Below are positions 3,300 to 12,516 of a DNA stretch of 42,927 nt, in pieces. The stretch is from a virus. How positions within the stretch are numbered: the first letter of the stretch is position 1; each line of letters begins with the position of its first letter. The stretch spans positions 1 to 42,927 of the IMG/VR virus record IMGVR_UViG_3300043331_000158; one strand, given 5' to 3'. The position numbers were made by a program, and so were the translations under genes. A model generated the notes under the pieces. The model was given only the letters and a program-made list of their open reading frames with translations, was not told the origin of the DNA and did no database searches.

Positions 3300-3560
3300 T
3301 AACGCGAAAAGTCTCAGTTGCATCGGTCAGCGTCCCCAACGTTTGTGCCGAGTGCGCCGGCTGGTCTCCCATGCTATCTGACGGTCCGCACGCAACCGCC
3401 GTCAGCCAATTGTCAGCTTACTGGTGCGGGTTGCGTTGTCAACCTGTTGGGCGCGCGTACACCGACCATTGGCGCTTGCGTGTGTTGATTATGCGACAGT
3501 TTGCGTTTCTGGGACGTGGCGTCGCGTTTGTGCGTTCAGCAGAACAACCTGGGGGCTGAC

Positions 3561-10304: not shown

Positions 10305-10495
10305 AACTTACCGAGCGAGGCCAGCGCGAAGTTGGCAACAGCCTCCGGGAGGCCATCGGCCGGCTGGAGCGCAGAGAGGCGGATTTGCGGGCGCAGATGG
10401 GCTTGCTTGAAGCCGAACTGTCCGACTTGGGGAAGATCCGAGCGGCCATCATGCTGGCGGCGGAGATGGCGCGAAAGAGTGGGGGCGTATCGTGA
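10301..10495 (+). CDS. Small coiled-coil protein, 64 aa
   Basis: This starts with GTG at 10301, overlapping the previous stop. Nearly the whole 64-residue chain is a predicted coiled coil (REAIGRLERREADLRAQMGL and onward) followed by an Ala/Met-rich helix. It could be an oligomerising adaptor. No family is recognised. Confidence 0.6.
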   Translation: MKLTERGQREVGNSLREAIGRLERREADLRAQMGLLEAELSDLGKIRAAIMLAAEMARKSGGVS

Positions 10496-10665
10496 GTCAG
10501 AAGCTAACAGCATACATCCGGTTCCCGTGGGTGGACTTTCCGCCAATCAAAACAAAGGTGGAGATCCGCCGGGAGGCGTCCCGGAAGGCTTGGCGCTCCC
10601 GCAAGCGGGTGAAGGCCGCTCGCGAAGCCGCCGAGCAGGCGGGGAATGTCGGGAGGGCGGCTTGA
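10492..10665 (+). CDS. Tiny basic protein, 57 aa
   Basis: The GTG at 10492 overlaps the previous stop (GTGA) and gives 57 residues. The N-terminus is hydrophobic and aromatic (KLTAYIRFPWVDFPPIK) and the rest is strongly basic (SRKAWRSRKRVKAAREA). The charge suggests nucleic-acid binding. Its stop overlaps the TTG start of the downstream methyltransferase, and GGGAGGGCGG at its 3' end would be that gene's ribosome binding site. Confidence 0.5.
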   Translation: MSQKLTAYIRFPWVDFPPIKTKVEIRREASRKAWRSRKRVKAAREAAEQAGNVGRAA

Positions 10666-12107
10666 GCTTCCGCTTTTTCCTCGACGGCCGCGTCACCGTC
10701 CACGCAGGCGACTGCAGGGAGGTATTGGCTTCGCTGCCGGAGAACTCGGTGGACTCCGTGGTGTGCGATCCGCCGTACGAACTGGGCTTCATGGGCCGCG
10801 GCTGGGACCGCACCGGTATCGCCAACGACCTGGGCGTGTGGGCGCAGGCGCTCCGCGTCCTGAAGCCCGGCGGCCATCTCCTCGCCTTCTCCGGCACGCG
10901 CACCTACCACCGCATGACTTGTGCAATTGAGGACGCCGGATTTGAGATAAGAGACCAAATAGGATATTGTTTTGGCAGCGGATTTCCGAAAAGTCACAAC
11001 ATCACAAAGGCCGTCAATGGATGTTCGTGTGAGGGATCGACGTCAGCCGCATCGCTGGTGCAATACGGTTTGCGACCTGTGCTCGAAACCGATGTACCGC
11101 AAGCCGGGCATGATGGCGAAGAACGCGAAGAAGTTTTGTTCGCGGGCGTGTCGGAACCGGGCTTATCCGCTGACGATATGCAATGCGCCTCCGCCGCCGT
11201 TCGGCGCGGCAAACAGGGCGTGGAAGGGAGGCGTCACGTATCGAAGGCGGCGCGGCAATTACGTGTCAGTCAAGTACGTGAGATGCCCAGCCGATCTGCT
11301 CTACATGGCCCGGAGGGACGGCTACGTAATGGAACACCGCCTGATAATGGCGCGTTGGGTCGGGCGTCCCTTGTTGCGGAGCGAGTGTGTGCACCACAAG
11401 GACCACAACCCGCTGAACAATGCGGTGAGCAATTTGGAACTTTGGCCGGACAACCGGACGCACAAGCTGTGGGAGCATGGCAGTTGTGTGGACGGTGCGG
11501 CAAACCGATTGTACCCGAAGGGCTTGGCTCCGCTCTCAAACCAGCATGGGAGCCCATCGTCCTCGCACGTAAGCCCCTGATCGGGACGATCGCGGAGAAC
11601 GTGCTTCGCTGGGGAACCGGGGCGATCAACATAGACGGGTGCAGGGTCGAGGCTGCCGATAACACAACCAAGGAATGGCGCGGCATTGGAGAACGGCCAC
11701 GTGATCAGTACCGGACTGGCACAAGCGGCAGACCCATTCCCACAGACATCGGCCGCTGGCCAGCGAACCTCGTTCTCTCTGACGATGAGGAAGTCAGAGC
11801 GGCGTTCCCGGAGACGGAGAGCGGGGGCGGCAACAAGAACACTGCCAACCGTGACGAGCGCAACGCCTTTGGCAAGGGTCTAGGTCTTGGAAATGGGGAC
11901 GGGATCGGTGGCGACTCCGGCTCCGCCGCCCGTTTCTTCTACACAGCCAAGGCCGGCACAGTCCAATTGGATGGAGCGCGTGAAGTTCAAGCACGGCATC
12001 CGTTATTCCGATCCGTCGTATGCTCGCAGCGCTCGGTTCGTTTGCTCGAGCTCTGGGGCTGGTCAGCGCGCGGGCGAGAAGTTCGTCGCGATCATCCCCT
12101 TCAGTAA
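10662..12107 (+). CDS. Beta-class DNA methyltransferase, interrupted and C-terminally damaged
   Basis: The TTG at 10662 follows GGGAGGGCGG and overlaps the previous stop. The N-terminal part has the catalytic motif CDPPYELGF (DPPY at 36-39) and ends at GSGFPKSHNITKAV. The family text resumes near residue 288 with GSALKPAWEPIVLARKPL and GTGAINIDGCRV. Between them, about 170 residues have no family character and overlap the HNH gene in another frame. After RFFYTAKA the expected C-terminal section (HPTVKP and the AdoMet-binding DPFxGSG motif) is missing, replaced by unrelated residues to the stop. In this permuted class that motif binds the cofactor, so the protein is probably inactive alone. 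It would have modified adenine N6 or cytosine N4. Confidence 0.7.
   Translation: MSFRFFLDGRVTVHAGDCREVLASLPENSVDSVVCDPPYELGFMGRGWDRTGIANDLGVWAQALRVLKPGGHLLAFSGTRTYHRMTCAIEDAGFEIRDQIGYCFGSGFPKSHNITKAVNGCSCEGSTSAASLVQYGLRPVLETDVPQAGHDGEEREEVLFAGVSEPGLSADDMQCASAAVRRGKQGVEGRRHVSKAARQLRVSQVREMPSRSALHGPEGRLRNGTPPDNGALGRASLVAERVCAPQGPQPAEQCGEQFGTLAGQPDAQAVGAWQLCGRCGKPIVPEGLGSALKPAWEPIVLARKPLIGTIAENVLRWGTGAINIDGCRVEAADNTTKEWRGIGERPRDQYRTGTSGRPIPTDIGRWPANLVLSDDEEVRAAFPETESGGGNKNTANRDERNAFGKGLGLGNGDGIGGDSGSAARFFYTAKAGTVQLDGAREVQARHPLFRSVVCSQRSVRLLELWGWSARGREVRRDHPLQ
11017..11580 (+). CDS. HNH endonuclease nested in the methyltransferase gene
   Basis: This frame is +1 relative to the methyltransferase. 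I start at the ATG at 11017, exactly where methyltransferase similarity ends; an ATG at 10972 would extend into conserved methyltransferase sequence. The 187-residue product has a zinc-binding N-terminus (CDLCSKPMYRKP, then FCSRACRNRA). A classic phage HNH core follows: GYVMEHRLIMARWVGRPL, VHHKDHNPLNNAVSNLELW and DNRTHKLWEHG (about 102-155). It should nick or cut DNA with a metal ion. Free-standing HNH genes of this type are mobile and insert in phage genes. The last 30 or so residues overlap resumed methyltransferase coding and look like filler. Confidence 0.8.
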   Translation: MDVRVRDRRQPHRWCNTVCDLCSKPMYRKPGMMAKNAKKFCSRACRNRAYPLTICNAPPPPFGAANRAWKGGVTYRRRRGNYVSVKYVRCPADLLYMARRDGYVMEHRLIMARWVGRPLLRSECVHHKDHNPLNNAVSNLELWPDNRTHKLWEHGSCVDGAANRLYPKGLAPLSNQHGSPSSSHVSP

Positions 12108-12240
12108 GAAGTTGTTTGGCGGCGATCATCTCATGCAATGCGAGGTGCACGCCATCCCGTGCGCAGCTGAAGAAACGCCAGTGGTAGACGAGGGTCGCGC
12201 GAACATTGGAGAGGTTGAGAAGGACAGGCGGAAAGATTGA
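11971..12240 (+). CDS. Hypothetical protein, 89 aa
   Basis: The ATG at 11971 lies where the methyltransferase loses its family sequence. The frame continues 133 bases beyond the methyltransferase stop. The 89-residue product starts MERVKFKHGIRYSDPSYARS, has a Ser-rich stretch, a strand pair with Cys (LMQCEVHAIPCAAEE) and an acidic/basic tail. No family is recognised. The codons are more natural here than in the overlapping methyltransferase tail, which suggests this is the real gene in the overlap. Confidence 0.5.
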   Translation: MERVKFKHGIRYSDPSYARSARFVCSSSGAGQRAGEKFVAIIPFSKKLFGGDHLMQCEVHAIPCAAEETPVVDEGRANIGEVEKDRRKD

Positions 12241-12291
12241 AACTGTTGCGCGGAAGCATGTTGAAACGGTCGACCCGGAATTGCGCAACCC

Positions 12292-12516
12292 ATGAGTGGT
12301 CTAGTACAACAGCGAGAGGTAACAGAAATCCTCATTGCAATAGATGCTCCGCATTTCTACGCGGGCATTGTGGCAAGAGATGGTAAGGTTATCGAAGCCG
12401 CGCACATCGTCAAATACATGAAGGGATGGGACGGCAAGCGTGTGGCCAACTACTGCAAGGCCAAGGGTTGGAACTGGGAAGTGGTGAGTAGAACGACGGC
12501 GACCATGAGGCCGTAA
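12292..12516 (+). CDS. Hypothetical protein, 74 aa
   Basis: This 74-residue protein alternates short strands and helices. It has ILIAIDAPHFYAGIVARDGK and a helix-rich second half with WDGKRVANYCKAKGWNWE. The layout (a strand with Asp, then a small hydrophobic strand) is like small phage early proteins of unknown function. It stands alone with a 51-base gap before it and no obvious ribosome binding site better than the purines at 12281-12288. Confidence 0.55.
   Translation: MSGLVQQREVTEILIAIDAPHFYAGIVARDGKVIEAAHIVKYMKGWDGKRVANYCKAKGWNWEVVSRTTATMRP

Follow-up and report, generated by a model that had tools for sequence, protein, structure and literature searches.

A phage DNA methyltransferase gene whose frame stays open over an HNH endonuclease gene nested in +1

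The methyltransferase locus and its insert

The stretch of DNA analyzed here (hereafter the window) is the virus record IMGVR_UViG_3300043331_000158 of IMG/VR, positions 1 to 42,927 (42,927 nt, 62% GC), whose products include terminase, portal and head proteins and a DnaB-like or primase/helicase protein. It also carries an open reading frame (ORF) for a DNA methyltransferase (MTase), which we take to be of the beta-class N6/N4 type, and within this ORF lies a gene for a zinc-finger HNH endonuclease in the +1 frame (Table 1). From 10305 to 12104 no stop interrupts the MTase frame (window position = 0 mod 3), which holds the DPPY motif and the GSGFPKSHN...GSALKPAWEP block of phage DNA MTases. 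A preliminary description of the window had pointed to an MTase frame without a stop over a zinc-finger HNH gene in the +1 frame, and the analysis bears this out.

Similarity to uninterrupted MTases reaches the GSGFPKSHN codons and begins again at GLGSALKPAWEP (11520 on). A homologue with an empty site (L184), the top match of a scan with the C-terminal flank (best 80 of 405), reads GSGFPKSHN-QPGGWGTALKPSWEP, and its junction places both edges of the insert, which was the purpose of the alignment with uninterrupted relatives proposed earlier. We also collected 197 distinct sequences spanning GFPK to LKP, 40 with an out-of-frame HNH by profile and 157 without; this span is at most 240 nt in 127 of the 157 HNH-less sequences and 558 nt in the window.

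The mechanical ORF of the HNH frame begins at TTG 10972, and the frame is open upstream of ATG 11017 from 10963, over MTase codons; we judged ATG 11017, with AAAGG upstream, to be the better start. At the other end the frame runs ~60 nt past the right edge of the cassette to its stop (TGA, 11578–11580). The HNH_3 (PF13392) score lies just under the gathering cut-off of 24.8 bits. In an alignment of 29 HNH sequences, C41 and C45 of the zinc finger are invariant, C19 and C22 are present in at least 90%, and the HNH core has many invariant or near-invariant columns. In an AlphaFold model, block means of the predicted local distance difference test (pLDDT) were 91–97 over HNH residues 91–150, and the best solved structure for this model, the only one above Z 5, was the homing enzyme I-HmuI (Z 6.0, root-mean-square deviation 4.8, 79 residues aligned).

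Table 1. Coordinates, strands and supporting evidence of the features discussed (window positions unless a locus is named)
Feature	Position	Strand	Evidence
DNA MTase ORF, host frame	10662..12107	+	phrog_67 E 8e-34; PF01555 24.6 bits (cut-off 26.7)
DPPY motif of MTase	10767-10778	+	
Conserved GSGFPKSHN codons left of insert	10974..11000	+	alignment with empty homologue L184
Inserted cassette, 173 codons open in MTase frame, 519 nt	~11001..11519	+	absent in L184
AAAGG, candidate Shine-Dalgarno site of HNH gene	11006..11010	+	sequence; 6 nt before ATG 11017
HNH endonuclease gene, 187 aa, +1 frame relative to MTase	11017..11580	+	phrog_20891 E 2e-16; PF13392 24.4 bits; 29-row alignment
CxC codons, left Cys pair, MTase frame	11022..11030	+	Cys-pair count over insert sequences
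Zinc-finger cysteines C19, C22, C41, C45	11071..11151	+	29-sequence alignment
HNH core (EHR...VHH.DH.P.NN..NLEL..N..HK)	11335..11466	+	many invariant or near-invariant columns in 29-row alignment
CxxC codons (CGRC), right Cys pair, MTase frame	11487..11498	+	Cys-pair count over insert sequences
HNH ORF tail over conserved MTase codons (GLGSALKPAWEPI...)	11520..11580	+	alignment with L184, L186, L094
Small zinc-finger HNH-like ORF (RHHDDY.KPLEIRWLC..CH), +2 frame, site SAARFF/Y.AKA	L016 3882-4283; L088 2500-2952; L121 4064-4468; L184 2992-3393		

Absence of stops from the MTase frame across related loci

Loci were gathered from an IMG/VR scan with the HNH (best 80 of 100), from GTDB contigs with the HNH alignment (13 loci), from MTase loci (best 80 of 178 confirmed stretches) and from some named phage records. 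The HNH profile matched in 100 loci, 88 of them above 150 bits, and 85 were counted as nested, i.e. with an HNH above 150 bits and an MTase N-terminal part, in any frame, within 800 nt upstream. Above 150 bits yet not nested were L091 (contig starting inside an MTase, frame open), L130 (no MTase) and L174, left out with its MTase N-terminal part 1001 nt upstream in an ORF that ends before the HNH. The following were also left out: L042, L066 and L084 (other HNHs in +2, 0 stops); L038, L163, L164, L165, L166, L179 and L180 (weak HNH, MTase N-terminal part absent upstream); L178 (71.8 bits, MTase 1390 nt upstream, +1, 0 stops); and L162 (truncated, 140 bits, +1, 0 stops). L114 and L167 were dropped as repeats of L008 and the window.

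In all 85 nested loci, which span 30% to 72% GC, the HNH is +1 relative to the MTase, whose frame is free of stops over the HNH; seven of them (L133, L137, L146, L148, L157, L158 and L161) have further MTase N-terminal matches in other frames. In this relation a stop can come about only from an HNH codon with T in its last position, followed by a codon that starts with AA, AG or GA. Across 74 representatives (<90% nucleotide identity), 0 stops occurred at 3418 opportunities against 770.7 expected from T use elsewhere (22.8%, 1937/8505), giving log10P = −459.6, a pooled value that overstates independence since the loci are related. The 22 representatives below 45% GC hold 353 of this count. In their third frame the nested stretches contain 724 stops, or 9.8 per locus, and as a control seven non-nested HNH genes (L130, L163, L165, L166, L174, L179 and L180) have 63 stops in total against 58.4 expected. 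In the window by itself, 0 stops were found at 38 opportunities against 6.1 expected (log10P = −3.07, P ~8.5e-4).

These counts bear on the simplest alternative, in which a GC-rich genome leaves a long frame open opposite an unrelated gene by chance. At the GC content of the window long chance ORFs are common, and ORFs abound in its six frames; the stop-avoidance count, AT-rich representatives included, and the many stops of the third frame nevertheless rule this out, so that we regard its probability as negligible. The preliminary description had suggested that the insertion could be recent, against which stand the sharing of the arrangement by 85 loci and HNH identities to the window that fall to ~40% within the family (29-row alignment).

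HNH genes are often carried in group I introns, and the preliminary description had proposed a spliced intron as one possibility: an intron, of group I, group II or a new type, would bear the HNH and the open frame would be incidental. The covariance-model search that it suggested gave no Rfam intron match in the window at the gathering threshold, and a permissive search (E up to 5) of 10400–12400 returned only the ffh sRNA (E 1.4, under its gathering score); in eight relatives at the gathering threshold there was likewise no intron, only a tRNA. Absence of a match is no proof, but splicing gives no reason for stop avoidance and needs no open frame, and alleles of a related cassette with in-frame deletions (described below) keep the MTase frame. 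The intron was set aside as the best reading on the Rfam null results, and we consider it highly improbable.

An MTase C-terminal part was found in the same frame in 67 of the 85 loci and only in another frame in 7 (L088, L131, L135, L138, L140, L142 and L147); none was found in 11, the window included, partly because contigs end. In the window, none of the six frames holds the C-terminal motifs HPT[VI]KP and DP[FC].GSG, and comparison with relatives shows that MTase similarity ends near FFYTAKA (11960–12290 region); the preliminary description was silent on this absence. An ORF at 11887–12240 (+), with no family above cut-off, sits where these motifs would be expected. Since it is without the C-terminal part, the MTase of the window is probably inactive, and the functional argument therefore rests on the relatives. 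It is accordingly possible, though on the whole unlikely, that in this virus the MTase is a dead remnant, the HNH a free gene and the open frame a legacy of earlier selection. The missing motifs are what one would expect of a remnant; on the other hand, the cassette remains free of stops in this frame, and selection over a long time is needed to account for the pattern across the family. A remnant in the window would be compatible with a maintained host frame in the family.

What is conserved in the two frames

In only four close pairs of HNH genes, the differences at the first, second and third codon positions were 0.154, 0.100 and 0.363, as for a protein-coding gene; the third HNH codon position is the first position of the MTase frame. 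In 300 distant pairs (mean HNH identity 48.8%), identity in the MTase frame was 24.5%, compared to 22.2% in a null of synonymous recoding without stops, and 214 of the 300 pairs exceeded their own null. The excess being this small, residue selection in the MTase frame was set aside as the main force. The preliminary description had held that its idea of a homing insertion would fail if relatives carried the same residues and conserved them as protein in the MTase frame. The insert is indeed present in relatives, with residue identity barely above the null, so that such conservation is not clearly seen.

In the AlphaFold model of the MTase of L094 (mean pLDDT 63.8), parts of the core exceeded 90, while all insert residues from 161 to 298 except one were below 50 and the blocks with the Cys pairs had values of 61–73. 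These Cys pairs flank the HNH on both sides in 35 of the 40 HNH-carrying inserts, on the right only in 1 and on neither side in 4, four of the 40 rows (L081, L082, L083 and L085) being of one near-identical type, that of phage Molly. Among the 157 HNH-less sequences, 152 have no such pair, 2 have the left only and 3 have both (L026, L210 and L248), where L210 is counted as HNH-less yet has an HNH on the opposite strand. The Cys pairs may close the inserted loop, perhaps with zinc.

The same data could be read as a functional domain of the MTase, e.g. part of its target-recognition region, which the HNH overlaps as an older or younger second gene. The association of the Cys pairs with HNH-carrying inserts, the slight excess of MTase-frame identity over the null and the existence of other inserts of ~400–520 nt between the same motifs, with no second open frame, are all in line with a domain, but the identity is low, the insert is predicted with low confidence and MTases without it exist. 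We consider a functional domain improbable.

Start of the HNH gene

Thirty-one representatives of the bare loci, i.e. those outside an intein context (see below), were compared for signals of initiation, with L102–L105 placed among the bare loci and L171 among the inteins by hand. A Shine-Dalgarno (SD)-like 4-mer or longer lies ahead of an HNH-frame start in 14 of the 31, compared with 3 for the MTase frame and 0 for the third frame; in 7 the HNH frame combines an SD-like site with ATG. A start codon before the zinc finger is present in the HNH frame of 30, the MTase frame of 28 and the third frame of 5 of the 31, a count that carries no weight since the search stops at the first stop, which shortens the third frame.

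If the HNH had no start of its own, programmed +1 frameshifting could yield it fused to the N-terminus of the MTase. The HNH frame of the window, open over MTase codons from 10963 with a run of AAAA there, would allow this, and the small number of representatives with both ATG and an SD-like site could be taken in its favor; the contrast in SD-like sites between the HNH and MTase frames over the same stretch is against it. This contrast favors internal initiation over frameshifting, without being a proof, and to frameshifting we give little credence. In several bare loci, e.g. L098, L109, L116 and L125, a recurring GTACCATA-like stretch (PYxH in the MTase frame) lies right at the HNH start codon, which could be an initiation signal or supply a further metal ligand.

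The same HNH family in an apparent intein context

The 85 loci were sorted by where GFPK lies with respect to the HNH, which gave 46 intein, 34 bare and 5 ambiguous loci. In the 46, the HNH lies just before a GN/SGFP-type junction in the MTase frame, i.e. the C-terminal end of an intein; an earlier pattern had found both intein ends in 37 loci and misclassed several (e.g. L138, L134, L148 and L171). When 28 N-terminal intein parts were combined into a profile, it matched the solved AceL NrdHF intein (6zgq, E 1.3e-7) and a DnaX mini-intein (E 0.0018), whereas single members reach the Pfam and NCBIfam intein models weakly. Thus an HNH of this family appears to lie out of frame inside an intein in related MTases. 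Of the ambiguous loci, L102–L105 are bare Cys-pair HNH cassettes at the intein site YG/SGFPK with no Hint domain, and L171 has an intein N-terminal part with no C-terminal junction found. In L086 (LR756508.1, a 484-kb phage with an unannotated record), the HNH is in the +1 frame of an MTase intein.

The preliminary description had argued that the window holds no intein as the frames differ. No Hint domain was found in the window ORF by Pfam or NCBIfam, in agreement with its conclusion; its argument from the frames does not suffice, given that the same HNH family is out of frame in apparent inteins. There are 5 changes of context on the HNH tree, and the approximately unbiased test against a single intein clade gave p = 0.034, a modest result since the test presumes groups set beforehand and L102–L105 (to bare) and L171 (to intein) were assigned by hand after the tree had been seen. 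The window HNH falls in a set of 8 rows without Hint (Shimodaira-Hasegawa-like approximate likelihood ratio test 99), its nearest neighbor being L094 (71% identity over 153 columns).

A related cassette in mycobacteriophages

In the same place of the MTase, the phages Molly, StellaBean, Lamina13, Optimus and SG4 have a cassette of related arrangement, with another HNH (PF01844) in +1 and with Cys pairs; the HNH is annotated as a nested coding sequence in Molly, StellaBean and Lamina13 only. The 687-nt insert is 99.3–99.9% identical in all ten pairs of these five phages, and the flanks are 81.4–94.2% (N-terminal) and 64.5–89.6% (C-terminal) identical. Such a cassette, more alike than its flanks, is what one would expect if the element were mobile. 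For the Molly cassette, Rufus provides the empty site. In Abrogate (L266) and Oogway (L267), most of the HNH has been lost by two different in-frame deletions, with both Cys pairs and the MTase frame kept. These comparisons support a Molly-type cassette that is mobile and whose HNH is dispensable.

Other hidden ORFs in the same MTase

Two loci of one virus, L210 (1549–2016, minus) and L211 (1998–2465), hold an antisense HNH_3 gene inside the MTase (29.8 bits, above cut-off). In L210, GGAGGT precedes the antisense ATG and Cys pairs lie on both sides of the open MTase frame; over the antisense HNH the MTase frame has 0 stops in 155 codons and the other two forward frames have 6 and 12. A scan for close relatives turned up the same virus only. 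At L042, L066, L084 and L269, +2 HNH insertions of the type called ShiLan (see below) are found near KPxxEP with the MTase frame open, L042 and L066 being AT-rich IMG/VR viruses.

The small HNH-like ORFs at the SAARFF/Y.AKA site (Table 1) have Pfam matches below cut-off or none, and as the search pattern demanded an open frame, their openness is no evidence. At L059 (3204–3981), a different HNH-like ORF lies in the same MTase region and the MTase frame has stops, a counter-example that is either broken or otherwise handled.

Interpretation

Comparison of the sequences establishes the insert, its frame relation, the host frame open in 85 of 85 nested loci, the conservation of HNH residues and, for the MTase frame, chiefly the avoidance of stops. 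From these we consider it probable that the element is a mobile HNH homing cassette in a phage MTase gene, placed in the +1 frame, which spares its host by remaining readable in the host frame. This supports the suggestion of the preliminary description of a homing-type insertion with the host frame kept open and ~170 (here 173) extra MTase residues. In such a scheme, the ribosome would read through the cassette in the MTase frame, and the MTase would carry a loop of ~170 largely disordered residues with the Cys pairs (CxC and CxxC) at its ends. The HNH protein would be made separately from the internal start ATG 11017 and would cut MTase alleles that have no insert, close to the strongly conserved SGFPKS codons, whereupon repair would copy the cassette in. 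The open host frame would stand in for the self-splicing by which introns and inteins spare their host.

Several observations weigh against a homing cassette that spares its host. As for the host, the MTase frame is kept open and little more, perhaps with a small constraint at the level of residues; most host genes look intact, and some are broken or cut off; and as the window MTase is without its C-terminal motifs, selection cannot now be acting on its function. Non-nested L174, near an MTase, has 1 stop against 5.0 expected, and the relatedness of the loci tempers the pooled probability. As for the insert, low pLDDT is also seen in variable MTase stretches of L094 outside it (~41–80 and 361–470). 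The match to I-HmuI is weak (Foldseek E 0.44), a Z below 8 can mean a shared arrangement, and the match rules out no family. An SD-like site before the HNH-frame start is limited to the 14 bare representatives mentioned above, with ATG in 7. Finally, the homing signature was seen in the mycobacteriophage cassette, a comparison outside which the window's own family lies, and between Molly and Rufus the cassette takes the place of variable codons rather than being a clean insertion.

Taking all loci together, we lean slightly towards a wider view, in which hiding an endonuclease in a host-readable frame would serve generally in place of self-splicing and would have evolved repeatedly. A single HNH family would move between a bare Cys-pair cassette and a Hint intein whose frame stays open, and other HNH families would use the same device in the other forward frame, once in antisense, and at several sites of one MTase. 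A published curiosity of a few mycobacterial phages would thereby become a measurable rule over viral loci, offering unusually clean evidence of long-lived dual-coding DNA and a third way, beside introns and inteins, for a selfish endonuclease to inhabit a gene unbroken. Material for probing homing, translation of the insert and what the Cys pairs do exists in the alleles with HNH deletions, in the intein versions and in the empty sites.

Comparison with known systems

I-HmuI, to which the HNH model was best matched among solved structures, is an endonuclease borne by a group I intron, whereas the window cassette is without an Rfam intron match. A close published precedent is the ShiLan element of mycobacterial phages, an out-of-frame zinc-finger HNH in a phage methylase whose frame has no stop; no intein or intron was detected, its distribution is that of a mobile element and the insert is predicted to loop out (Arsenault, Gosselin and Gogarten 2025, PMC11855218). 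It lies within ALKPxxEP and occupies the third frame (+2), starting with GTG 18 bp in and ending with TAAC in most copies; no ribosome-binding site was detectable, and leaderless translation was suggested (PMC11855218). The window resembles it in the same kind of phage methylase, the out-of-frame zinc-finger HNH and the open methylase frame, and shows three of the traits that characterize a hidden HNH, namely an insertion relative to homologous methylases, an HNH in another frame and an open methylase frame; a further trait, a disjunct distribution of an element that is more alike than its hosts, was seen for the Molly cassette. It lies outside ShiLan proper, with its site after SGFPKSHN, the +1 frame, an ATG start, a TGA end, the AAAGG and the Cys-pair flanks, and its HNH is a different one from that of Mantra (32% over 125 aa).

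An out-of-frame HNH has also been reported for Applejack (PMC12613952). Molly gp61 and Applejack gp55 share with the window the MTase insertion region, the +1 frame, Cys pairs on both sides and the open MTase frame, but their HNH is PF01844 instead of HNH_3, and this type is near-identical in the five phages compared, while the window family is diverse. A methylase intein at YG/SGFPK with its own LAGLIDADG endonuclease is described by Gosselin et al. 2023 (PMC9957025), and ShiLan gp65 carries an intein at the same site (YG/C...GN/SGFPK). Host gene and site are those of our 46 loci with an HNH before the GN/SGFP junction; in these, the HNH is read in +1 relative to the apparent intein, in contrast to the LAGLIDADG endonuclease of that account, and the window is without Hint.

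In the literature searched we found no account of a stop-avoidance count for a hidden HNH and none of an out-of-frame HNH inside an intein, although a preprint (10.1101/2025.01.02.630785) on actinobacteriophage inteins of 'non-canonical architecture' may hold one. The kind of element is already known from ShiLan (PMC11855218) and from Applejack (PMC12613952). What is new is the HNH family of the window and its spread, which by the IMG/VR and GTDB scans reaches far beyond mycobacteriophages, together with the 46 intein-context loci, the antisense case, the Cys-pair flanks and the HNH-deletion alleles of the related cassette.

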